A stretch of DNA of 64,000 nt from an uncultured Clostridia bacterium. Its GTDB lineage: Bacteria; Bacillota; Clostridia; Christensenellales; Borkfalkiaceae. Made by a program: the position numbers and the translations under genes. Shown here piece after piece: positions 3,910-19,972 of the stretch. The DNA lies in contig CALVHO010000002.1 of assembly GCA_944328445.1 (NCBI GenBank), forward strand, positions 1 to 64,000, written 5' to 3'. Numbering within the stretch: the first letter of the stretch is position 1; the number at the start of each line of letters is the position of its first letter. Below the pieces are notes generated by a model. That model made no database searches and was not told the DNA's origin. It was given only the letters and a program-made list of their open reading frames with translations.

Positions 3910-3951
3910 ATTATAATCAAAATGTACGATTTTGTCAATAGAAATCGTACA
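3910..3951 (-). promoter_or_regulatory. Consensus promoter plus operator of the Phd/PIN operon
   Basis: On the minus strand TTGACA (complement of 3933-3938) and TATAAT (complement of 3910-3915) are separated by 17 nt, a full consensus. A perfect inverted repeat TGTACGATTT / AAATCGTACA (3923-3932 and 3942-3951) covers the -35 box. This is the expected autoregulation site. Confidence 0.85.
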
Positions 3952-3970
3952 ATTTTCTTGGAGAAATAAA

Positions 3971-6607
3971 ATGAGAATTATCCCTAAAAAAATCAAAGTA
4001 AAAAATACGGTCTGGAAGTGTTATTCCATGACGGACGTTGTGGTCGCGCTGTTTGTGTTTGCGCTCATCTTCATCGCGGTCACGGCGGGGAACTGGGCGA
4101 TTGCAATTATCATGGGGCTTATAGCGGTCGTTATGTTCATGCCCACGCCGGACGGCATTTTCTATACTTGCATCTTTGAGAATGTAAAATTCCTGTTCGC
4201 CAAAAAGCGATATACGGCGGACGCAAAGAACCCGAAAGAGAATATCGACACGCTTTTGGGACTGAAAGAGATCAGGACAAACGGCTTGCTCGCGTACAAC
4301 GGCGGAATGTACGGCAGGGTCATCAAGGTGGGGCAAAAGAACTTCGGTATCGAGGACGTGGTGCAGCAGAATATCGACATCGGCTACATAGCAAACGCCC
4401 TGAAACTGCTCGATGCCAACCAAAGCGCGGACATCATCAAGATCGACCGCCCCGTCAACTTGGACGGCTTTGCAAAGGACATCTTCGACAAGCTCTCCGC
4501 GCTGCGCGAAAGCGGCGAATATTCCGACGTCAAAGACATCCGCCGCGGCATTTTGCAGGAACGCATCGACCGTATCGACAAGCTCAACAATATCCGAAAG
4601 CAGTACCTGTCCGACTATTATATTGTAGTGTATGGCAGGAGCGAACTTGATTTAGAGAGTACGGCGATCAATATCGCGGGCGAGGTCGGAAAGAGCGGAC
4701 TGTCCACGAAGCTGTTAGGTCAAAGAGAGGCGGCTGTGTTTCTGAAATACAGTTTTTCTCGCAATTTTGACGAGCGCGAGGAAAAGGAGATTGCAGACGA
4801 AGACTTGCTCGCATGGGTAAGGCCGAAAGAAGTCGTGTTCCACGGCAACAGGTACGTCATCGACGGTACGGAGGCGAGCGTGCTTGCCGTCGCGGACTAT
4901 CCTCTGCGCGTCAAAAACGCTTGGGGAGCAAAGTTGTTCAATATTCCCAACACGAAGGTCGTGATGCACGTCAAGCCCGTAGATAAGTATAAGGCGATCC
5001 GTCGAATCGACAAGTGCATCGGCGAGATGGAAACTAAGCAGATCGTGGCGGACAAGGCGAGCGAGGCAAACAGCGCGGAAACGCATCAGGAAACGATGAA
5101 CGCGCTCCTCGATAGTTTGCAGACGGAAAACGAAAGCCTTTTGGACGTTACGCTGACCGTCACCGCCTATAACTATCTCAAAAATGAAAATTACAAAAAG
5201 GCGGTGCGTAGAGCAATGCTTACGGAAAACTTCAAACCGTCCACGCTGTACGGCTTGCAGATCGAAGGCTTCAAGACAGCGGCGGTATCGCCCGTAAGCA
5301 CGCTCAAAAACCATGAGCGGGGCATCAACAGTTCAAGCCTCGCGGCGGTGTTTCCGTTTGTGCGGACTTGCGTCCTCGATAATGGCGGTATTCTTCTCGG
5401 CGAGAACAAGACGAACGGCTACCCGTTTATCCTCAATTTATGGAAGCGCGGCAATCTGTATCAGAACAGCAATGCCATGATCATCGGCAAATCGGGCTCG
5501 GGGAAGTCGTACTTTTTGAAAACACTCATCGCCAACGAATGGGCGAACGGCACGCGGGTGATCGTATTAGACCCCGAAGCCGAGTATCTGACGCTCACAC
5601 GAAACCTTGCAGGCAATATCATCGACGTGGGCAATGCAAAGGAAGGGCGGATCAATCCTTTTCATATTTATAAAATACTCACGGAGGACGGCACGCCTGC
5701 CGACCCGAAGGTCACGTTCAATACTCATCTTAAAATGTTGGAGAGCTTTTTCAAGATCGTGCTTGCGGATGCACCCGTCGATGTCATAGAACTCATCAAT
5801 AATCTCGTCGTGGAAACATACGAGCGGATGGGCATTACGGAGAATACCGACTGTTCGGCGTTTCCCGCGGACTACTTCCCGCTGTTTTCCGATCTTCTCG
5901 AAACGTTGCAAGCAAAGGATAAGGGGAGCATGGATGAGCTTACCAAGAGGGATATGCGCACGGCGGAGCTGTATTTGCAGAAGTTTGTTTCGGGCAGGTA
6001 TTCGGACATCTGGAACGCGCCGTCAACGTTAAAGACGGATGCCGACCTTATAGACTTCGATTTTCAGAGCCTGTTTGCCAACAAGAACAATACGGTGGCG
6101 AACGCGCAGATGCTGCTCGTTTTCAGATTTATTGAACAGGAAGTTATCAATGCGAGGGAAAAGAACAAGGGCGGAGCAAACCTGCATACGCTTATCATTG
6201 CGGATGAGGCGCACCTCTATATCGACCCTAAATTCCCGATCGCTCTCGATTTCTTCTATTCGATGAGCAAGAGAATCCGAAAGTACAACGGCTCGTTCAT
6301 TCCCGCAACGCAGAATATCGCGGATTGGAACGCGAACGAGGAACTTCGCGGCAAGACTTCGGCGATTATCAAGAACAGTCAGTACAGCTTTATCTTCAAG
6401 CTGTCCGCGCCCGATATGAAGGACGTGCTCGACGTTTACAAGGCGGGCGACAGCTTTAATGACGAAGAACAGAGAATGATCATCTCGGCGGTTACGGGAC
6501 AGACTTTTTTTGTCGGCTCTACGGAACTGAGAAGCTGCGTGCTTATCAAAGCGGGAGATTATACGCAAAAGCTGTTTGATGAAAAAACAGGGGAGGGATT
6601 GATTTGA
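3971..6607 (+). CDS. VirB4-type conjugation ATPase with N-terminal membrane hairpin
   Basis: 878 aa from the ATG at 3971, preferred over an in-frame start at 3932 because GGAGA lies 7 nt upstream and 3932 falls inside the toxin operator. Residues ~20-57 contain two membrane helices like those of VirB3/PrgI proteins, fused to the ATPase. Walker A is IIGKSGSGKSYF (about 503-514) and Walker B is LIIADEAHLYID (about 741-752). VirB4 powers substrate transport and pilus assembly at the inner membrane. The stop overlaps the TTG start of the next gene. Size and motifs are typical of the TraE/VirB4 family of Gram-positive conjugative elements. Confidence 0.92.
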   Translation: MRIIPKKIKVKNTVWKCYSMTDVVVALFVFALIFIAVTAGNWAIAIIMGLIAVVMFMPTPDGIFYTCIFENVKFLFAKKRYTADAKNPKENIDTLLGLKEIRTNGLLAYNGGMYGRVIKVGQKNFGIEDVVQQNIDIGYIANALKLLDANQSADIIKIDRPVNLDGFAKDIFDKLSALRESGEYSDVKDIRRGILQERIDRIDKLNNIRKQYLSDYYIVVYGRSELDLESTAINIAGEVGKSGLSTKLLGQREAAVFLKYSFSRNFDEREEKEIADEDLLAWVRPKEVVFHGNRYVIDGTEASVLAVADYPLRVKNAWGAKLFNIPNTKVVMHVKPVDKYKAIRRIDKCIGEMETKQIVADKASEANSAETHQETMNALLDSLQTENESLLDVTLTVTAYNYLKNENYKKAVRRAMLTENFKPSTLYGLQIEGFKTAAVSPVSTLKNHERGINSSSLAAVFPFVRTCVLDNGGILLGENKTNGYPFILNLWKRGNLYQNSNAMIIGKSGSGKSYFLKTLIANEWANGTRVIVLDPEAEYLTLTRNLAGNIIDVGNAKEGRINPFHIYKILTEDGTPADPKVTFNTHLKMLESFFKIVLADAPVDVIELINNLVVETYERMGITENTDCSAFPADYFPLFSDLLETLQAKDKGSMDELTKRDMRTAELYLQKFVSGRYSDIWNAPSTLKTDADLIDFDFQSLFANKNNTVANAQMLLVFRFIEQEVINAREKNKGGANLHTLIIADEAHLYIDPKFPIALDFFYSMSKRIRKYNGSFIPATQNIADWNANEELRGKTSAIIKNSQYSFIFKLSAPDMKDVLDVYKAGDSFNDEEQRMIISAVTGQTFFVGSTELRSCVLIKAGDYTQKLFDEKTGEGLI

Positions 6608-8853
6608 AAGAAAACATTAAAAAAACAGCAATATATACGACACTTATTGCTCTGCTTGTATCCTTATTGATATTGTGCATTTCAATGGGTACCGGCGGTT
6701 TGGTTGCAGAAGCGGCTACAACTCCGCGCTATGCCGTCAGTTTCGACTACACCTGCTATTATCAGTATAACACTTCAAAAACGGTAAGCAGTTCGGGAAC
6801 GGGAGCCACGTCTGCAACGGTCACAAACTCAGCGGGCGGTTCGACCACAATTTCTATTGCAATGTATGGTAGTGCGGCATCGGGAAGCGGTACTCTTGCA
6901 AATGGCGGAACTATAAAATCAAATACCGTCAACATTGTACTTACGTCCGGCTATGAATGGAATACGATGACTGTCACTAACAGCTCAGGAACAGAGGTCG
7001 GCAAAAGTTCAAATAAAACTTTGACGTTATCAAATCTGGCAGACGGGAAATATACATTTAGCGGAACCGGATATGGACGAGGCTGGAACCCGAATCCGAG
7101 AGCGTATGCAACGTATTCTACTCAGATTTCGTTTACATTTGTGGTCGATACATACGTTGATAACACGATACCGACAATCAGCGGGGCATCGATTTCTTCA
7201 ACGGGCAAGTATACAAATCAATCGTTTACGGTTACGGCGAGCGATATAGGGAGCGGCATTGATAAACTCTATTGGATGGCTCCGAACAGCGGGAGCTATT
7301 CGTCTACGACTTCGACCACTAAAACCATTTCTGCAAGTTCGGCGAACGGTTTGTATCGATTTTATGCAACGGATAAGTACGGAAACAAGTCGTTGACGTA
7401 TTATGTGTTTCTTGATACGGTTGCTCCGTCCGGAACTTTCTCGTTGCGAAACGGGAATACGATTGCATCAGGCGGCTCGACAAAAGAGGAGTTTTCCTTT
7501 TCCGCCACAGATAGCGGCAGCGGTGTGAGCAAACTCGAATACAGAACGCCGTCTTCCTCGGTATGGAAAATATATACGTCGGGAACATACATTCAGCCCA
7601 CAGAGGCGCAGGGGCTGTTCTATTTCCGTGCTACGGATAAAGCGGGGAATACTTCGACTTATACCATCACGACGATACACCCTTGCGCGGATGGGCATAC
7701 TTATGTTCCGAAAGTGACGCTGCCGACCTGTACGGCGGGTGGGTACACGAGATATACTTGTTCGGTGTGCGGCAGCAGTTATACGGGCGATGCGACGCAG
7801 GCGCTCGGACACAGTTATACGGCATCTACGATGACGGCTTCCTGCACGAGTGGCGGATATACGAGATATACTTGTGAGAGATGCGGAGATAGCTATACGG
7901 GCAACCCGACTGGAGCAACGGGGCATAGCTATGTCGCTTCGATCACAGAGCCTACTTGTACGGAACGGGGCTATACCATCTACACCTGCACAAAGTGCGG
8001 GGACAGTTACCGCGACAACGAAACGGCGGCGATCGGGCATAACTATGTGCAGGAAACGGTTTCGGCGACTTGTACGGAGCATGGGGGGATCAAATATACC
8101 TGTACCCGCTGCGGGGTAAGCTATAACGGCAGCCAGAGCGAGCCGCTCGGTCATGTGTATGTGACGGAAACGGTGGCGGCGACCTGCGAAGAGGGCGGCT
8201 ATACCAAGCATACTTGTTCGAGGTGCGGGGACAGCTATACGGATAATCAAAGCCAGCCGCTCGGACATAACTTCATTATGACGACAAAGGAAGCGTCCTG
8301 CGAAGAATTTGGCATGACGGTCTATACCTGTCAGGTGTGCGGGTACGAACGTACCTAAGAAACCGGCGCGTATCCTACGGGGCATAATTATTCTAACTTT
8401 ATCGTAAAAGCGGCAACCTGCACGGAGGACGGAGAACACAAATATGTCTGCGATAAGTGCGGCGACGAATATACGGAAGTCATCGCCGCGCCGGGGCATA
8501 GCTATGCGATCACCGATTCGGCTTCCGAAAACGGCAAGACGACGCGGGTATATACCTGTACCGTTTGCGGCGACTCCTATACGCAGGAACTTGGCGATCA
8601 GTACGACGAGGTAACGTCGTATGTGGAAGATCTGTTCGAGCAATACCGCCCGTACATGATATGGGTGTTCCTTGCGACTGCCGCCGTTTGGAGCATTGTG
8701 ATGGGCGTGTTCTTTGCGATCGCCCAAAAGAACGAGGACAAAGAGAAAGCAAAGAGGATGCTCGTGAACTACTTTGTGGGGCTGGTCGTTATCTTCTGTA
8801 TCCTCGTTGCCTGCCCGTATCTTATCCGCGGGATCGCCGCCTTGGTGACGTAA
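6604..8853 (+). pseudogene. Secreted Ig/Cys-repeat protein with pilin-like C-terminus, interrupted by in-frame TAA
   Basis: TTG start overlapping the virB4 stop. A signal peptide (about 1-37, ending AEAA) is followed by a Ser/Thr-rich region, two Ig-like modules (about 190-360, each starting near D(N/T)xxP) and Cys-rich repeats of the same type as the protein at 22-1479. A TAA at 8356-8358 stops the frame after 584 aa. The same frame continues for 164 codons with two more repeats and a two-helix C-terminus (from about 8623) like the pilin-like protein at 1504. Because homology continues across the stop, this is one gene with a nonsense change, a readthrough stop, or a sequencing error. A GTG at 8623 with GAGG about 11 nt upstream could also start a free 76-aa pilin-like peptide. 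Confidence 0.8.
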
Positions 8854-9843: not shown

Positions 9844-10083
9844 TTGGATTATATAATCGGGGAAGATGAAAAAGGCAAATTTGTAAAATTTGAAAAAGAC
9901 GGTGCGCAGGCAACAATTCGTTTTGATTCGACCAATGCAGCGGATGCGTTCGCGGGGACGAAACGGATATTGGGAAGTGTGTTCGAGCGTGCAGTAAAAG
10001 ATAAGATGCGAAAAGGAGAAGAAAAATATGAAACGAGTATATTGTCTGTATCGTGTATCGACGAAGGGGCAAGTGGATCATGA
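9844..10083 (+). CDS. Small hypothetical protein overlapping the recombinase start
   Basis: 79 aa from the TTG at 9844, chosen because GGAGGGG lies 4 nt upstream; a TTG at 9832 overlaps that site. The sequence starts MDYIIGEDEKGKFVKFEK and is acidic/basic with no membrane segment. Its last 56 nt overlap the recombinase start in another frame, which suggests translational coupling. I do not recognise the family. Similar tiny genes often precede large serine recombinases on integrative elements and may be directionality factors, but nothing in the sequence proves this. Confidence 0.45.
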   Translation: MDYIIGEDEKGKFVKFEKDGAQATIRFDSTNAADAFAGTKRILGSVFERAVKDKMRKGEEKYETSILSVSCIDEGASGS

Positions 10084-11590
10084 CGATATCCCCATGCAGC
10101 GAACGGCTTGCCGAGCATTTGCGGAAAGAAACGGCTGGACAATTTGTAAAGAGTTTTTGGAAAAGGGTGTTTCTGGTTATAAGACTTCCGCCGAAGATAG
10201 TGATGCCATTCAAGATTTGAAAGTGGCTGCAGAGAAGAAAGAGTTTGACATTTTGCTCGTATTCATGTTTGACAGGCTCGGGCGTATTCCTAACGAAACG
10301 CCGTTTGTCCTTGAGTGGTTCGTGAAAACAGGTGTAGAGGTGTGGAGTGCGAAAGAGGGGCAACAGACCTTTGAAACAGACGTGGATTATCTCATGAATT
10401 ATATCCGCTTTTGGCAGGCGGGCGGGGAGAGCCGCAAAACTTCCATGCGTGTTCAAACCCGTATGCGTCAAATGGTAGAGGCGGGGCAGTTCACGGGTGG
10501 GGTATGTCTGTTCGGATACCGCTTTGTCAAGAGCGGCATGTGTAACAAAAAAGGGAAAGAATTGGTTGCGTTGGAAGTTGTGCCCGAAGAAGCCGCAATT
10601 GTGCAATTCATTTTTCATAAGACGGTGGCAGAAGGATATGGAACTTGGCGGTTGAGTGATGCCGTCAATGCGCTCGGTTATAAGACGCACCGTGGTGCTA
10701 AATTTCAGTCGAATACCATAAACCGTATCCTGCACAACCGTATCTTTACGGGAAGATTTGTTCGCGGGGGAAAGTCATCGCAGGTCATAGAAGCGCTAAA
10801 AATTGTGGAGGACAGCGAATTTGAAGAAGTACAGAAAATTGTCGCAGCGCGGCAGGGCGAAAGGCAGGAACGGATGAATATCGCATATACCACGAGAGGA
10901 GCCTCGCTATTGAGCGGCAATATCTTCTGTGCGCATTGCGGAGCAAAATTATATGCAATTACTTATTCTGATCCGGTCACGCTTGCAGATGGGACAAAAA
11001 AGAAATACAAGGGAATAAAATACATTTGCTCAAAGAGAATACATAAAAGAGGCCCTTGTGACGGGCAGACGTAATACGCGTCTAAAAAGATTGATGGTGT
11101 CGTTTTAGAAGCGATTCATGCCGTTTTACAGAAAATGCAGGGAAGCGTTAAGGATGAATCTCTAAAAAAGAGTTATGAAAAAACTTTGAAAAGCAAAAAG
11201 GCGATCTATGAGGAACTTTTGCGAGAACAGGCAAAAGAACAAGAGAAGTTGAATCGTCTGCTTGCAGAAGTGGGTAACGTATTGATGAACGAATCAAGTT
11301 TTTCTTTGGAAACTCTGAACAGGGCGATAGAACTGACGAAAGCAAAACTTGCAGAGTTCGATGAAAAAATACCCAAGACATTGAAAGAGTTGAATGAACA
11401 GAAGTCGATAATAGAGAATCTTGACACATATTACGATCAGTTCAAAGGTTGGGCAGAATCGTTTGATGTAGCGACCAATGAAGAAAAGAAAATGATCATC
11501 TGCAAACTCATCAGCCGTATTGAAGTTGGGAGGGGCTATAAAGTAAACATTGTTCTGAATATGGACTACGGGCAGTTTGTGGGAGAATAA
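10028..11590 (+). pseudogene. Large serine recombinase, frame interrupted by in-frame TAA
   Basis: ATG after AAAAGGAG. The N-terminal resolvase domain has YRVST with catalytic Ser11 and the arginine motif FMFDRLGRI. The recombinase domain follows (QFTGGVCLFGYR onward), then a zinc ribbon (FCAHCG ... CDGQT). A TAA at 11072-11074 ends the first part (348 aa). The same frame resumes at once with YASKKIDGVVLEAI and runs 171 codons through a coiled-coil tail to 11590. In intact relatives the zinc ribbon joins the coiled coil in exactly this way (GQT-x-Y-A-x-K), so the TAA replaces one residue. Such enzymes integrate and excise the element at att sites. The truncated form lacks the coiled coil needed for synapsis in known enzymes. 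Confidence 0.85.
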
Positions 11591-11648: not shown

Positions 11649-11692
11649 ATACGAAACATATGTATGGTAATAATTTTAATAGGAGAAAATTT

Positions 11693-14203
11693 ATGAAATC
11701 GGAAGAATTACTTAAGGATGTATTAAGAAATCGAAATCCTGCTTTATTTATAGGGGCAGGTTTTTCATGTGGAGCAATGAATGGGGAAGGGAAAGAGCTT
11801 CCTGTGGGTAATCGGTTGGCTCGTGAGTTATATGAGAAGGTTCTTCAACCTAATATTAATAATGATAAAAGTATGACAAAGCTTGATGCTGAACGGGCCC
11901 AAATAGATTTGAAGTATATCTGTGATATTTTAGAATTAAAAAAATTAAATAATGAGCGGGATAAGTTCTTAACAGGAAGGTTTAAAGGGTGTCATTGTAA
12001 TAATGATTATCATGGGATTATAAAAGATTATGACTGGAGATATATTTTTTCTTTAAATATTGATGACCTGGTGGAGAATATTTACGAGAATAGAATAAAT
12101 GTTCAGCTTTTGGGAGGAGATTCAGGGGAAATAGGGTATCCAACATTGATTAAACTACATGGATCAGTATTAAGTTCTGAACTCGGCTATGTATTTAGTC
12201 AAAAAGAATATGATCGCTATTTATCGCAGGCCTCATGGGCTATTAATGCTTTTGCGACAGAGTATTTTCGCAATGATATTATTTTTTTGGGGACAGAATT
12301 TCAGGAAGATGATTTGCGGAATATTATAAATAAATTTTCTGATGCAGGAGCGGCAACGCGTGCACATAATTATTTTTTTGTTACGCCTAAACTTAACGAT
12401 GAAATTTTAGAGATGCAGATTGACCATAATTATAATTTCCATCATATTGGAATGACTACGGAAGAATTTTTTAAATTTATAGTTGCTGATGTTGTTCAGA
12501 AGAGAACGCAGAAAAGATTATTGACTAGTCAAGGTGCTATTTTTTTAGATGATGAGAAAAAAAATTATCGTCCATCATTTTTAGATGTAGGTAGACTTTA
12601 TCAGGGGGATATACCACAGTTCGATGATTTTTTTGGCGATTGGGATATTAGGTACCCTAAAGCTGATTTGTGGATTCAACAAACCATTGATGCAAAAAAT
12701 CATACTGTTCTATCATTATACGGAGATCCGTATTGTGGAAAATCATGTGTAGCGATGAGAATGTTGGTTGATTTATATAATAGTGGATATTTTAGTTTTA
12801 AATATTCAATTAGCGTTGACGTGGACGCTATTCAATATTCTCGATTAATAATTGAATTTCTATCTTCATTGCCAACAGGAGCAAAGTGCGCAATTTTGGC
12901 AGAGAATATGGCGCACTTTTATTCGAATTTAAAATATATCGTGGAAAATTGTCCAAAAAATATTTCTCATCTAATTATTATTGTTACAGCAGAAAAAGAA
13001 GAGCATATTGTAAAACGCTATATATTTGATAGTGTTGATTGGTTTGAGGAGCATAAAATAAGTTATAAAATAAACAATAAATTTGCCCACAATATTTATG
13101 GTAAATTAGAACAGAAAAATCATTTGAATAATTTATTGAAATATGTAGACGGAAAAACTAAGTGCATTCAGTATATTAAAAAGCTTAATGATATAATTGA
13201 AGTGCTCTTTTTAGTACATGAAGGCAGAAAGTTTAGTGCGCATTTTGCTGCATGGGTAGATCAAAAAGGGAAAAATTCGGTTAATGAAAAATTATTTCAA
13301 ATGCTCTGCTTTTTAGGTGGATTAGGGATAAATGAGGTTCCGTTACAATTTTTTATGGAAATTGGATCCGAAATTGGATTTAGGGTCGGCTTTGATAATT
13401 TTATTCAAGAATATGGGGATTATCTCATTTTGGAGAAAGGTTATTTAAGAGTAAGGTGCTTACGAATCATTAATCAGAAAGTTTTGTGCGGCATAACAAA
13501 TCAGGAAAAATATCAAATAATCTTAAAAGCAGCAGGATATTACGCTCCATTGTTAGATGATCACAGAAGTTCTATTCCAGATAAGATATTCCAAATGCTA
13601 ATTAAAGTCAAAACTATATTGCGTGAAAAGATTCTTTCAAACGATCAAATTTTAAATTTATTGATTGAATTAGAAGGTAAAGCAAAACATTTAAGTTATT
13701 ATTGGATTCAGAGAGGCATAGCTAATAGGAATTTAGACAACTTCGAAGAAGCGAATAATGATTTTATGCAAGCCGTATCTGTACGCGGTCGAGTATCCTA
13801 TAATATAGAGCATGCGCAAGCAAAAAACTATATGGCATGGGGGTTATGGCTATTAAGCCATAATGTTTATGATTCGTTAGAACTATTCGAAAGAGGACAG
13901 GAAATGTTAAAAAATTTGATAATTAATTCTCCGAGAAGATACTATGTTTATTCTGTGCACAGTTATACTGACATGATGATTAAATATTTTAATATAAAAA
14001 ATACAATACCATCACAAGACGAGTTGGACTTTATAGTTCATAATTTACAAGAGATAAAACGTGCATACGAAGATGATTACTCGATTCAGATAGTTTCTCT
14101 TTTCAATCGGTATTGTAAAAAAGTAGGATTGAATATTCACTTGAAAGAAGGGAAAATAAATAATAATGATATTATAGATATTGACGATATAGGTAAAGAT
14201 TGA
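11693..14203 (+). CDS. SIR2 - P-loop NTPase - TPR-like protein, candidate anti-phage STAND (Avs5-like)
   Basis: 836 aa from the ATG at 11693, chosen over 11660 because AGGAGA (11681-11686) precedes it. The N-terminal SIR2 NADase-type domain has IGAGFS (about 20-25), SLNIDDLVE (about 120-128, the (T/S)xNxDxxxE signature) and KLHGS (about 152, catalytic His). A P-loop LYGDPYCGKSC lies near 340, and TPR-like helices are near 660-760 (YWIQRGIANRNLDNFEEA). This order is that of SIR2-STAND defence proteins (AVAST type V), in which phage protein sensing triggers NAD depletion and abortive infection. The gene is strongly AT-rich against GC-rich neighbours and stands alone between recombinase and tRNA scar, signs of recent transfer. 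A different SIR2-NTPase defence family is possible. Confidence 0.75.
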   Translation: MKSEELLKDVLRNRNPALFIGAGFSCGAMNGEGKELPVGNRLARELYEKVLQPNINNDKSMTKLDAERAQIDLKYICDILELKKLNNERDKFLTGRFKGCHCNNDYHGIIKDYDWRYIFSLNIDDLVENIYENRINVQLLGGDSGEIGYPTLIKLHGSVLSSELGYVFSQKEYDRYLSQASWAINAFATEYFRNDIIFLGTEFQEDDLRNIINKFSDAGAATRAHNYFFVTPKLNDEILEMQIDHNYNFHHIGMTTEEFFKFIVADVVQKRTQKRLLTSQGAIFLDDEKKNYRPSFLDVGRLYQGDIPQFDDFFGDWDIRYPKADLWIQQTIDAKNHTVLSLYGDPYCGKSCVAMRMLVDLYNSGYFSFKYSISVDVDAIQYSRLIIEFLSSLPTGAKCAILAENMAHFYSNLKYIVENCPKNISHLIIIVTAEKEEHIVKRYIFDSVDWFEEHKISYKINNKFAHNIYGKLEQKNHLNNLLKYVDGKTKCIQYIKKLNDIIEVLFLVHEGRKFSAHFAAWVDQKGKNSVNEKLFQMLCFLGGLGINEVPLQFFMEIGSEIGFRVGFDNFIQEYGDYLILEKGYLRVRCLRIINQKVLCGITNQEKYQIILKAAGYYAPLLDDHRSSIPDKIFQMLIKVKTILREKILSNDQILNLLIELEGKAKHLSYYWIQRGIANRNLDNFEEANNDFMQAVSVRGRVSYNIEHAQAKNYMAWGLWLLSHNVYDSLELFERGQEMLKNLIINSPRRYYVYSVHSYTDMMIKYFNIKNTIPSQDELDFIVHNLQEIKRAYEDDYSIQIVSLFNRYCKKVGLNIHLKEGKINNNDIIDIDDIGKD

Positions 14204-14224: not shown

Positions 14225-14294
14225 CCTCTACGATTGGTAGAGCATTCGGCTGTTAACCGAAGTGTCGTCAGTTCGAGTCTGTCAGGGGCAGCCA
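14225..14294 (+). pseudogene. 5'-truncated tRNA-Asn (anticodon GTT)
   Basis: Perfect anticodon stem TTCGG/CCGAA around loop CTGTTAA (anticodon 14252-14254 = GTT, Asn), T-arm GTCAG-TTCGAGT-CTGTC with one mismatch, 3' acceptor AGGGGCA, discriminator G and CCA (14292-14294). The 5' acceptor strand (expected TGCCCCT) is missing; the sequence there is the end of the SIR2 region, and the D-stem is only 3 of 4 paired. This is what integration into a tRNA gene leaves behind, so it probably marks an element boundary. A functional tRNA is unlikely. Confidence 0.7.
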
Positions 14295-14527
14295 ACGGAA
14301 AGAGAGGTGTTACCTCTCTTTTTTCGTTGGCTGCCCCTGACAATTGAGGAGAAATGAAGCCCGCGCAAGAAAGACATGGGAACAGGGGCGCGAGGGCGCG
14401 GGCATGTCAGTTCGTGCTCGGAGCGAAAGCGGAGAGCTTTGCGCCGCAGGCGCAAGCCCTGTCAGGGGCAAAAGAAGAAGAGCAAGGGAACTGCATAAGC
14501 GGTTCTTTTTTCGTTGGCTGCCCCTGA
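14280..14527. repeat. Two copies of a tRNA-end/terminator unit
   Basis: TGTCAGGGGCA occurs at 14280-14290 and 14460-14470. A 22-bp repeat (six T, then CGTTGGCTGCCCCTGA) occurs at 14319-14340 and 14506-14527. In each unit the two ends are complementary and enclose a terminator-like hairpin. The first unit is the tRNA 3' end with its terminator; the second is a diverged copy. The rest of 14204-14598 holds no convincing gene. Confidence 0.6.
14302..14324 (+). terminator. Terminator after the tRNA remnant
   Basis: GAGAGGT / ACCTCTC with a 3-nt loop and six T residues. It is enclosed by an outer 18-bp inverted repeat formed by the tRNA 3' end and its reverse complement. Confidence 0.8.
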
Positions 14528-14858: not shown

Positions 14859-16633
14859 TGGCGATCAACGAATTGCAGAAGCAAACAAATATAAACATTC
14901 AGGAAAAAGCCAACCTTATTTGGGAGATCGCGACGCATCTGGTAGGTTTTTACAAACCGCACGAGTACGGAAAGGTCATCCTTCCCATGACGGTGTTAAA
15001 GCGTTTTGACGACGCTCTGGCGGCGACGAAGGACAAAGTTTTAGCCGCCTATCAGACGCTGAACGAGCAGGGCTATGAGGGCGCGATCCGCGACGGCGCC
15101 CTTTGCCGCGCCTCGGGCTATTCCTTTTACAATACGAGCAAATTCGACTTTGCCCGTCTGCTTGCCGACCCCGATAACATTCACGTCAATTTTGAAGATT
15201 ATCTGCAAGGATATTCGGATAATGTCAAGGATATCCTCGCCAACTTCAAATTCGCCGACGAAGTAAAGAACATGGTCAAAGGCAACGTCCTTTACGTCGT
15301 GATACAAGAGTTCAACTCCAAAAAGGCGGATATGTCCCCCGATAAGATCACATCGACGGACATGGGCTACATCTTTGAAGAGCTCATCCGCAAATTTTCC
15401 GAAAGTTACAACGAAGAAGCAGGGGCGCACTTTACCAGCCGCGATATCATCTATCTGATGACCGAACTCCTCATTTCTCCCGAAAAGGAGGAGATCAAAC
15501 AAAACGGCTGTTTTAAGACGGCTTACGACATGGCGATGGGCACGAGCCAGATGCTCGGGTGCCTGACCGAACGCCTCAAAGAGATCAATCCCGAAGCCGA
15601 CCTCACCTGCTTCGGGCAGGAATTCAACCCCGAAACTTACGCCATCGCAAAAGCGGATATGCTGATCAAGGGCGGCAACGCAAGCGGCATGAAGTTCGGC
15701 GACACCCTTTCCGAGGACGCCTACGCGGGGTTTGAATTCGATTATATCATCTCCAATCCTCCCTTCGGCATCGATTGGAAGCGCGAAAAGGACGCCGTGG
15801 AGCGGGAGGCAAAGCTCGGCTACGACGGCAGGTTCGGGCCCGGGCTCCCGAGCATTTCCGACGGGCAGATGCTGTTCATGCTCAACGGCGTGAAAAAGCT
15901 GAAAGAAGGTTCGGGCAGAATGGCGATCATTCAGAACGGCTCTTCGCTGTTCACGGGTGACGCGGGCAGCGGCCCTTCGGAGATCCGCCGCTACCTCATC
16001 ACGAGCGACCTTGTAGAGGCGATCGTGCAGCTGCCCACCGATCTTTTTTACAACACCGGCATCGCAACGTACATTTGGGTGATCAGCAAAGATAAAAAGG
16101 CCGAAAGGCTCGGCAAAGTTCAGCTCATCGACGCGAGCAAATGCTTTGTTAAGCGCCGCAAAAACATCGGCAACAAGCGCGTGGATCTGGATGATGACTG
16201 CATTGCGCTGATCATACGGGCGTATAACGAGTTTGAAAATAAGGCATATACCGAAGGATCGCTCTTTGCCGAAAGCAAGGTGTTTGAAAATGAATTTTTC
16301 GGCTACACCAAAGTGACGGTGGAAACGCCCGTGACCGACGAGACGGGCAACCCCGTTTTGAAAAAGGGCAAGCCGCAGCCCGATAAAGCCAAGAACGATA
16401 CCGAAATGATCCCGCTTTGCGAAAATATCGACGACTATTTTGCAAAAAACGTCCTTCCTTACAATCCCGTCGCCTATATGGATAGGAGCAAGGACAAAAT
16501 CGGCTATGAGATCCCGTTTACCCGCCTGTTTTACAAGTTTACGCCGCCGCGGAAGTCCGACGAAATTTTTGCCGAATTTAAGGCGTTGACCCACGAAGAA
16601 GCCGATCTGATGAAGGAGATTTTGGGGGAATGA
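14858..16633 (+). CDS. hsdM: Type I RM methyltransferase subunit HsdM
   Basis: 591 aa. The N-terminal helical domain (NLIWEIATHLVGFYKPHEYGKV) is typical of HsdM. The catalytic motif IV is SNPPFG (about residues 298-303), that is N6-adenine methylation. Motif I reads YDMAMGTSQMLG near 223-234 in place of the usual DPxxGTGxxL, so two small residues differ. HsdM methylates the adenine of the target defined by HsdS and forms the R2M2S complex. It overlaps both the HTH gene and the KAP ATPase gene (ATGA). Its GC content matches the chromosome, unlike the genes that follow. Confidence 0.93.
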   Translation: MAINELQKQTNINIQEKANLIWEIATHLVGFYKPHEYGKVILPMTVLKRFDDALAATKDKVLAAYQTLNEQGYEGAIRDGALCRASGYSFYNTSKFDFARLLADPDNIHVNFEDYLQGYSDNVKDILANFKFADEVKNMVKGNVLYVVIQEFNSKKADMSPDKITSTDMGYIFEELIRKFSESYNEEAGAHFTSRDIIYLMTELLISPEKEEIKQNGCFKTAYDMAMGTSQMLGCLTERLKEINPEADLTCFGQEFNPETYAIAKADMLIKGGNASGMKFGDTLSEDAYAGFEFDYIISNPPFGIDWKREKDAVEREAKLGYDGRFGPGLPSISDGQMLFMLNGVKKLKEGSGRMAIIQNGSSLFTGDAGSGPSEIRRYLITSDLVEAIVQLPTDLFYNTGIATYIWVISKDKKAERLGKVQLIDASKCFVKRRKNIGNKRVDLDDDCIALIIRAYNEFENKAYTEGSLFAESKVFENEFFGYTKVTVETPVTDETGNPVLKKGKPQPDKAKNDTEMIPLCENIDDYFAKNVLPYNPVAYMDRSKDKIGYEIPFTRLFYKFTPPRKSDEIFAEFKALTHEEADLMKEILGE

Positions 16634-18051
16634 ATGATTTATCAAAAGATAAAATCGGCAGGCAGCCGCTTGTCTACAAAATAAAATATCTGATTGAAAA
16701 TCTGCCGCAAGACGAGCATTTTTGCCTTGCGCTTGACGGCAAATGGGGGAGCGGTAAAACGTTTGTAATGGAAATGCTGCGGAAGAGTTTGAAAGAGCAT
16801 TCCGAATATATTGTAATAGATTACGACGCTTGGAAGAATAACTTTTATCCCGATCCACTCATTGCTATTTTATATTGCGTTTTAGATTCGATACCAAAAC
16901 AACACCTTGCCAAAAAGGATTTGCGGTTTGTATTGCGGGCGGTAAAACAAGTAGTAAAAGATAAAATTGTAAATGGAGTGGATTGCTTTATATGCAAACT
17001 TTATCAAAAAGGTTGGTCTTCTGTTTGCGCTTTTGCAATGGAAATTATCAAATTTGTAATTAAACAAGCAAAGAGTTCGATTTTAGATAATAAATTGTTT
17101 GACGACTACAAATCATATCAAACATTGCTGAATGAAAGTCTTGCCGTTTTGAATGCGTTGACGGCACAAAAAATAGCCGACGGCAAGCAACGTCGCCTCA
17201 TTATTATGGTCGATGAAATCGACCGATGCCTGCCAAATGAACAGTTGATTGTTTTAGAACGCTTACACCACCTATTTGCTGTTAAAAATTGCGCAGTAAT
17301 TGTTGCCCTTAACAAAAAAGCAATATACTCGACTTTTGACAATCAATATGGCGGCAATGGAATAGAATATCTACGAAAATTTTTTTCATATAATTTCGTT
17401 GTGGAAACGGAATATAGCACTTTTTTACGCAATCTCATCAAAGATTTTATTGATGATATCAATAATTCAAAAAGGAAAAACTACGTTTATACGGAACAAG
17501 AAATCGAACCTTTGATTTCTGCTTTGTTAAATGAATTTCGCAGAATATCTTTAATCTATAAATTTTCTTATAGCAACAGAGATATCCAAAATTATTTTGA
17601 TAAGTTCCATAGAATTTGGACGAAAGACAAACCTTTGGATATTGTTTTTATCAGTTTTTTATTATTTATGGTCCTTTACAAGCAATATGACGAAACAAAC
17701 TATCAAGCGTACAAAGAAGGCAGATGGAACAATACTCCGTTTGAAACTTTCAATTTCGGAGATAAAATTCAGCTATCGGGTGAGTATTCTTTTCCCTATG
17801 GGGAAGTAGGGTCAAGTTATCCTTGGTATAACAATAGTTTTAGCAATAAATTTACTTCTTTTATGAATAGCGTTCGTTTTAGAAAGAATAAAACAGTGCT
17901 TAATTGGTTTCAAATATTAAAGAATAGAAATATTTATCAGCTATATACTTTGAGCGAAAACGACAGCGTAACAGTCGAAGATAATTTTAAAGAAATAGAG
18001 AATTACGGAACAATGACAAAAGGCAAGAGCAATGAAAAACAGCGGAATTGA
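16630..18051 (+). CDS. KAP-family P-loop ATPase within the RM operon
   Basis: 473 aa, start overlapping the hsdM stop by 4 nt. Walker A GKWGSGKT (about 37-44), the downstream YDAWKNNFYPDPL that KAP NTPases carry as (F/Y)(N/D)AW...P(L/I), and Walker B LIIMVDEIDRC (about 189-199) followed by LERLHHLFAVKNCAVIVALNK identify the KAP family. A hydrophobic stretch lies around 125-145 between the two motifs, where KAP proteins often have membrane helices. The second half is AT-rich and unlike known domains. KAP ATPases occur in defence islands. Here the gene is locked between hsdM and hsdS by overlaps at both ends, so co-function with the RM system is likely but its role is unknown. Confidence 0.8.
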   Translation: MNDLSKDKIGRQPLVYKIKYLIENLPQDEHFCLALDGKWGSGKTFVMEMLRKSLKEHSEYIVIDYDAWKNNFYPDPLIAILYCVLDSIPKQHLAKKDLRFVLRAVKQVVKDKIVNGVDCFICKLYQKGWSSVCAFAMEIIKFVIKQAKSSILDNKLFDDYKSYQTLLNESLAVLNALTAQKIADGKQRRLIIMVDEIDRCLPNEQLIVLERLHHLFAVKNCAVIVALNKKAIYSTFDNQYGGNGIEYLRKFFSYNFVVETEYSTFLRNLIKDFIDDINNSKRKNYVYTEQEIEPLISALLNEFRRISLIYKFSYSNRDIQNYFDKFHRIWTKDKPLDIVFISFLLFMVLYKQYDETNYQAYKEGRWNNTPFETFNFGDKIQLSGEYSFPYGEVGSSYPWYNNSFSNKFTSFMNSVRFRKNKTVLNWFQILKNRNIYQLYTLSENDSVTVEDNFKEIENYGTMTKGKSNEKQRN

Positions 18052-19303: not shown

Positions 19304-19972
19304 ATGCTTGGCACAATAATAAAAGTTTTTGATGACATCCGATGGGCAAAGAATTTTCTTAATCAAGGAGAAATGAAATTCAGTCATGTAACGGTCATGC
19401 AAAAAATTGAAGACGCGGCAAGAAATGATGAAAGAGAAGGAAAGCTGCAAGAAAGTTATGCTGTCAACATTCAAGAAAATCTCCCGTTCGTTCGGATCGG
19501 AGATAAACATATTCTTGATTTAGAAAAAATGGCGGCTGACGGATTAGATATTCGAGGGAAGAATGTAAAGTTAAGAAATTTTTACACAGCCGATGTTTTT
19601 ATTTATTCTGCGGCTTTTATTGTAGAATTTTATGACGATATCCAAGCAAGGTTTGCGGAAATAAAGAAGTTTGGTCCTTATGCCGTTGTAATTAAAAATT
19701 GCCAAGAATTTTTGTCACGTGTTCAGTCTGTATTGCCTCAGGTTCAAGTAGGAAGAGTAGTATATACGAATACTCCGCAAACAATATTTGAAAAACCTTT
19801 AAAATACTCTTTGGAGTCAGAATTGCGTTTTGTGACGCAAGGTGAAAAGAATAGCGATAAAACTCTTTTTAAACACGTTGGTTCTTTACAGGATATTGCA
19901 TATATATGCGATGTAAGTTATTTTGATAATTTGGCATTCGCGTTTGAGTTATCAAAGAAGAGCCATTTATAA
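19304..19972 (+). CDS. Hypothetical protein between hsdS and hsdR
   Basis: 222 aa, ATG 3 nt after the hsdS stop. Soluble, no membrane segment, AT-rich. Short segments such as KPLKYSLESELRFV near 165 recall the (Y/F)xxExExR element of some defence-associated proteins (DUF2971-like), but the match is too short to assign a family. Tight packing between hsdS and hsdR means it is co-expressed with the RM enzymes. It could be a regulator, an anti-restriction guard or an added effector. Confidence 0.6.
   Translation: MLGTIIKVFDDIRWAKNFLNQGEMKFSHVTVMQKIEDAARNDEREGKLQESYAVNIQENLPFVRIGDKHILDLEKMAADGLDIRGKNVKLRNFYTADVFIYSAAFIVEFYDDIQARFAEIKKFGPYAVVIKNCQEFLSRVQSVLPQVQVGRVVYTNTPQTIFEKPLKYSLESELRFVTQGEKNSDKTLFKHVGSLQDIAYICDVSYFDNLAFAFELSKKSHL

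Follow-up and report, generated by a model that had tools for sequence, protein, structure and literature searches.

The window analysed here, a 64,000-nucleotide stretch of a Clostridia contig, contained at 11693-14203 an AT-rich gene whose product joins a SIR2 domain to a P-loop and TPR-like helices, and the locus raised the question of which kind of protein this is and what it does for its carrier. The gene is most probably a single-gene Avs5 (AVAST type 5, SIR2-STAND) immune receptor that is predicted to destroy NAD+ and is likely triggered by phages. The domain order, the motifs, the predicted fold, the whole-length homology to Avs5 and the position of the gene, at one end of a mobile element, were established here.

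Gene, domains and conserved residues

The gene and its parts, all on the forward strand, are given below.

11681-11686, +, ribosome-binding site AGGAGA, 6 nt before ATG 11693 (read from the sequence)
11693-14203, +, SIR2-STAND (Avs5-type) gene, 836 amino acids, stop codon included in the coordinates (ORF listing, SIR2_2 match, orthologues, PDB matches)
11693-12460, +, predicted SIR2-like NADase effector domain, residues 1-256 (Pfam, AlphaFold2 model, motif conservation)
12056-12058, 12062-12064 and 12158-12160, +, putative catalytic residues N122, D124 and H156, respectively (N and D by analogy with N110 and D112 of PaAvs5, PMC12931631)
12590-13117, +, STAND NTPase core, residues 300-475 (model, motifs)
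12722-12745, +, Walker A motif GDPYCGKS of the NTPase core, residues 344-351
12890-12907, +, Walker B-like motif AILAEN of the NTPase core, residues 400-405
13154-13453, +, helical and winged-helix-like segment, residues 488-587, with a predicted beta hairpin at 578-587 (AlphaFold2 secondary structure)
13460-14122, +, TPR-like helical repeats, residues 590-810, the presumed sensor (AlphaFold2 models, clade motifs)

The ORF listing showed that the reading frame could also open at an in-frame ATG at 11660, upstream of 11693; ATG 11693 was taken as the right start because the AGGAGA stands 6 nt before it. The GC content of the gene was 0.315 (GC3 0.253), compared with 0.50 (GC3 0.67) in the VirB4-like gene and a GC of 0.565 across the whole window. 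The initial annotation had called the gene AT-rich and foreign in composition, and a GC of 31.5% against ~56% in the window agreed with this.

Pfam analysis of the window protein identified SIR2_2 (PF13289) at residues 118-250 (E=8.6e-15), and the P-loop and TPR parts gave sub-cut-off matches only (AAA_24, 3.5e-4; TPR_2, 0.045). Neither nSTAND3 (PF20720) nor nSTAND5 reached the Pfam cut-off in the window protein, and in its 40% identical orthologue L092 both also fell below it, at 7e-4 and 9.7e-4, respectively. The window protein carried GAGFS (21-25), N122, D124, H156-G157 and the Walker A motif. The SIR2 features listed for Avs5 in PMC12931631, a catalytic Asn/Asp pair and an HG or NG motif, are represented here by N122, D124 and H156-G157. 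Among 28 aligned sequences, G21, G23, F24, S25, N122, I123, D124, G157, G344, G349 and K350 were invariant, while H156 was kept in 27 of the 28 and the Walker B-like position 404 was D or E in the same number. The order of SIR2, P-loop and TPR-like helices proposed initially was recovered in the SIR2_2 match, GDPYCGKS at 344-351 and the C-terminal TPR-like helices, and the active site, described as intact, had N122, D124 and H156 all present. In the repeats, the close clade described below conserved the motifs HxSYxW (666-671), SYxxxHxxA (702-710) and YSVHxY (753-758).

Mobile element and neighbouring genes

The window starts at contig base 1, and its left 11.6 kb contained conjugation-type genes and a serine recombinase. 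The features that define the element are as follows.

3932-6607, +, VirB4/TraG-type conjugation ATPase of the same element (P-loop_TraG, 2e-12)
10028-11590, +, serine recombinase (phrog_95 integrase) with an in-frame TAA at codon 349 (11072-11074), the frame running on to 11590
14236-14294, +, 3' 59 nt of tRNA-Asn(GTT), with the 5' 17 nt replaced (congener comparison); right-hand element junction

The serine recombinase gene, with its in-frame TAA, looks disrupted or split. On the other side, ARAGORN called no tRNA in the window; similarity to the intact tRNA-Asn of congeners began exactly at 14236 in four separate genomes. Since the 5' 17 nt of the tRNA-Asn are replaced, the right junction of the mobile element was placed at ~14235. 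The element inserted in tRNA-Asn is of conjugative type, and the SIR2-STAND gene is its last gene, stopping 33 bp inside the right junction. The gene had been described as standing alone between a recombinase and a tRNA scar, and it was indeed found with the broken serine recombinase on one side and the truncated tRNA-Asn on the other. No second tRNA-Asn(GTT) anticodon stem was found in the assembled genome, the sole copy being that of the truncated gene (14240-14262); an intact tRNA-Asn therefore probably lies at the left end of the element, beyond the contig, and is presumably missing from the assembly.

Two further observations were made on the element and its edge. Two predicted surface proteins (22-1479 and 6604-8358) share repeated CTxxGYTxYTCxxCG-type units. 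The region 14280-14342 contains a terminator hairpin (RNA fold z = -10.9) flanked by a perfect, inverted 18-bp copy of the 3' end of tRNA-Asn; this arrangement of tRNA-Asn with inverted copy and hairpin was also present in a congener (L107/L109), and pieces of 14236-14527 recurred in many congeners.

A type I RM locus lies downstream of the gene, as was noted at the outset, but the two do not form one unit, because the element edge at ~14235 falls between them. Within that locus, a KAP-family P-loop NTPase gene (16630-18051; Pfam 8.4e-32; PADLOC candidate PDC-S20, 155 bits) stands between hsdM and hsdS, with a GC of 0.337 against 0.515 for hsdM, and is likely a second defence cargo. Between hsdS and hsdR, a 222-aa ORF (19304-19972) was matched in none of Pfam, PADLOC and NCBIfam and gave only weak PHROG matches (phrog_26561, 1.8e-6; phrog_13198, 3.2e-4).

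Homology to Avs5, predicted fold and close relatives

A broad family profile searched against PDB sequences matched EfAvs5 of Escherichia fergusonii (9jap) at residues 45-828 (E=1.8e-32) and the AVAST5 chain 9nah at residues 23-388 (E=2e-15). A profile built from the five close sequences alone found no Avs5 among the PDB sequences, so alignment depth mattered, and phmmer with the window protein found nothing in the PDB. RecA matches of the broad profile were set aside as repeated P-loop matches and not kin. HHalign was used to compare the set of five close sequences (A5) with the EfAvs5 clade (A6), which includes L097, a 98% match to the 9jap chain; it gave a probability of 98.5 and E=2.2e-15 over 712 colinear columns. 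Minus SIR2, the two sets still aligned at E=5.9e-7 over 441 columns, compared with 0.16 for the reversed and 0.3-0.8 for the column-shuffled controls; the C-terminus only gave E=1e-5 (0.06 reversed) and the NTPase only 8e-5. The EfAvs5-clade profile did not match 9nah at E 0.01, and the solved Avs5 are therefore about as distant in sequence from each other as from this clade. The PADLOC Avs5 profile PDLC02170 matched neither the window protein nor the 98% EfAvs5 match, and because it fails equally on the latter, its silence is no evidence against membership.

An AlphaFold2 model of the whole protein was obtained from a 28-sequence alignment of the window protein and its relatives (pLDDT 84.1, pTM 0.70). 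It showed a SIR2 domain of Rossmann type, a P-loop NTPase, a helical stretch whose beta hairpin at 578-587 would fit a winged helix, and helix pairs at 590-810. A predicted fold lacking a STAND ATPase had been named beforehand as what would refute the Avs5-like reading; the reading survived, the model showing a P-loop NTPase core, a winged-helix-like hairpin and helical repeats. A structural comparison with Avs5, DSR and ThsA had also been proposed, and in Foldseek against the PDB two Avs5 filaments ranked first, 9jap EfAvs5(SIR2-STAND) at E=3.9e-24 and the AVAST5 filament 9nc9 at E=5.0e-19, both matching over the entire length including the NTPase, followed by SAMD9, DSR2, the STAND-TPR protein 6mfv and ThsA. 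TM-scores of the whole model against the Avs5 filaments were low (0.28), which may be due to a different domain arrangement, a monomer model being compared with a filament. The BFVD fold search returned generic AAA and replication-factor ATPases only. With Avs5 structures as the best PDB folds and a profile homology that covers the whole length and holds without SIR2, the SIR2-STAND (Avs5-like) reading of the initial annotation was upheld.

The C-terminal 351 residues were also modelled separately (pLDDT 85, pTM 0.80), and the top PDB match in Foldseek was again 9jap EfAvs5 (E=5.2e-4, TM 0.50), with STAND-TPR and SAMD9 ranked lower and AVAST5 further down. It had been suggested that the C-terminal part might define a new sensor; since its model alone found EfAvs5 first, the sensor is of the Avs5 repeat type and its fold is not new. 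The sequence of the repeats, the presumed sensor, was unlike that of every characterised Avs5.

No full-length match was found in 39 congeners, in 395 other genomes of the same order or in 397 genomes of the phylum, and a profile search of the class found none in 390 genomes, so that the genome of the window was the only one of 391. Single-sequence scans of genome contigs and viral contigs, and tblastn against plasmids and phages, gave nothing, while a PF25199 search at E<=0.01 was of little use, returning almost all genomes. Among the other SIR2_2 proteins of the order, two (L017 and L022) shared the domain order. An alignment seeded with L022, the IMG/VR proteins L064 and L065 and the plasmid protein L067 yielded ~20 distant proteins of 770-830 aa and four full-length orthologues of 30-40% identity, which were reached only via distant-relative anchoring. 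These were L092 (40%), L070 from Flavonifractor (32-33%), L071 from Oscillibacter valericigenes (30-32%, with an identical copy in L093) and L072 (30-31%). The existence of four full-length orthologues at this level of identity speaks for more than chance.

In a quick tree of 38 proteins, the five close sequences grouped together with full support on a long stem, apart from the EfAvs5 clade and from a 23-member SIR2-nSTAND5 group; the deeper joins are unsure owing to long branches. The window protein, L092 and L070-L072 are a rare, deeply divergent Avs5-type branch on gut Clostridia mobile elements. L070 has a tRNA-Leu on one side and, on the other, two serine recombinases and then a MobA relaxase. 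L092 belongs to a prophage, where its neighbours are a regulator of the phage repressor type and an integrase. L072 and L071 are both found at prophage ends, the former adjoining terminase, portal and major head genes, and the latter with a large phage-family protein on one side and, by reading, apparent host sporulation genes on the other. On an Oscillospiraceae plasmid (L067, 3007-7388), a related SIR2-nSTAND5 gene directly follows Ku and DNA ligase genes.

Proposed mechanism, alternative readings and known systems

By analogy with characterised Avs5 proteins, the receptor would be expected to have NADase activity, to depend on ATP, to form filaments, to sense a protein and to protect against phages. 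In the resting state, the TPR-like C-terminal repeats and the NTPase would keep it inactive. When the repeats have bound their trigger, for which a phage protein is the likeliest candidate, an ATP-dependent rearrangement, with opening of the NTPase, would permit oligomerisation, probably into an EfAvs5-like filament; PMC12700824 cites filament activation for EfAvs5. Once activated, the SIR2 domains would hydrolyse NAD+ via N122, D124 and H156, and infection would stop. The NAD+ drop of PaAvs5 was transient (PMC12931631), and strict "abortive infection" is therefore not to be taken for granted. The trigger of PaAvs5-1 is JADA, from jumbo phages (PMC12931631). It is suggested only tentatively that the trigger of the present clade differs from those of all characterised Avs5, being for example a Clostridia-phage protein or a feature of a competing element, and that its SIR2 domain, with SLNID and HG, is perhaps regulated differently.

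All close relatives are on or beside mobile elements, and the window copy is the outermost gene of its element, next to the junction at 14235; this would also suit a SIR2-STAND receptor whose main target is the mobile DNA of competitors (plasmids, ICEs or other prophages), that is, an exclusion cargo protecting its carrier element. Such a role is unlikely, as characterised Avs5 proteins counter phages (PMC12931631), and prophages and ICEs typically carry phage defence genes too, so the context separates neither reading from the other. The diverse roles of STAND proteins leave room for a signalling protein whose SIR2 domain does some other NAD-dependent job, deacylation or ADP-ribosylation, and not immune NAD+ depletion, but the nearest folds are two Avs5 immune filaments, followed by the NADases DSR2 and ThsA, and the gene occurs in 1 of 391 class genomes and in none of 39 congeners. 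Being rare and absent from the congeners, it is accessory and not housekeeping, and a role of this kind is very improbable. Hardly credible is a decaying gene without functional product on a defunct element: the in-frame TAA at 11072-11074 in the adjoining recombinase and the truncated tRNA-Asn would fit decay, but the gene itself has 836 open codons, intact catalytic and Walker motifs and a good ribosome-binding site.

The Avs5-type immune receptor is therefore preferred. The rare divergent clade is new, while the Avs5 receptor type was already known. Avs5-type immunity is extended from Proteobacteria, the source of the examples considered, to a separate clade in gut Clostridia, whose genes lie at the ends of prophages and integrative elements. 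Both this clade and the near-identical EfAvs5 match escape the PADLOC Avs5 model, and Avs5 counts obtained from it are therefore underestimates. For a trigger search in Clostridia, the repeat motifs that the clade strongly conserves offer a direct starting point.

Among the known systems compared, the SIR2-nSTAND_NTPase5 proteins of 770-830 aa (L064, L065, L067 and L073-L096) have the same domain order and alignable invariant motifs, but share 15-17% identity with the window protein, form a separate branch and mostly carry TTNID where the window protein has SLNID. ThsA of Thoeris, the name given by PADLOC, shares the SIR2 NADase domain (E=1.8e-7, residues 11-252) and has a C-terminal SLOG, whereas the window protein has an NTPase and repeats; it was rejected because the match ends with the SIR2 domain and EfAvs5 is given the same label. 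DSR2 likewise joins a SIR2 NADase to a long helical sensor, with a weaker fold match (E=1.8e-9) and solved chains of ~1,000 aa; it is not known to contain a P-loop NTPase of the kind seen here, and it was rejected for a protein of 836 aa with an intact P-loop.

The AVAST type 5 filament protein (9nah/9nc9) shares the SIR2-STAND-helical architecture, but is shorter (769 aa) and matches in sequence over the SIR2 domain and the start of the NTPase only. PaAvs5-1 of Pseudomonas aeruginosa, by its published description, has SIR2, nSTAND3 and repeats, an architecture like the SIR2, NTPase and repeats of the window protein, and its N110 and D112 would correspond to N122 and D124 (PMC12931631). Its Walker B-like IIFIE and the AILAE of the window protein both contain a single acidic residue, while its SIR2 motif is NG and not HG; the two forms are reported to be about equally frequent (PMC12931631). 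EfAvs5 likewise carries NG (seen as HING) where the window protein has HG, and a degenerate Walker A, SDLGNGKS, in place of the canonical GDPYCGKS. It stands in a separate deep clade at ~22% identity across ~500 residues, and its SIR2 effector, NTPase and C-terminal helical repeats follow one another as in the window protein.
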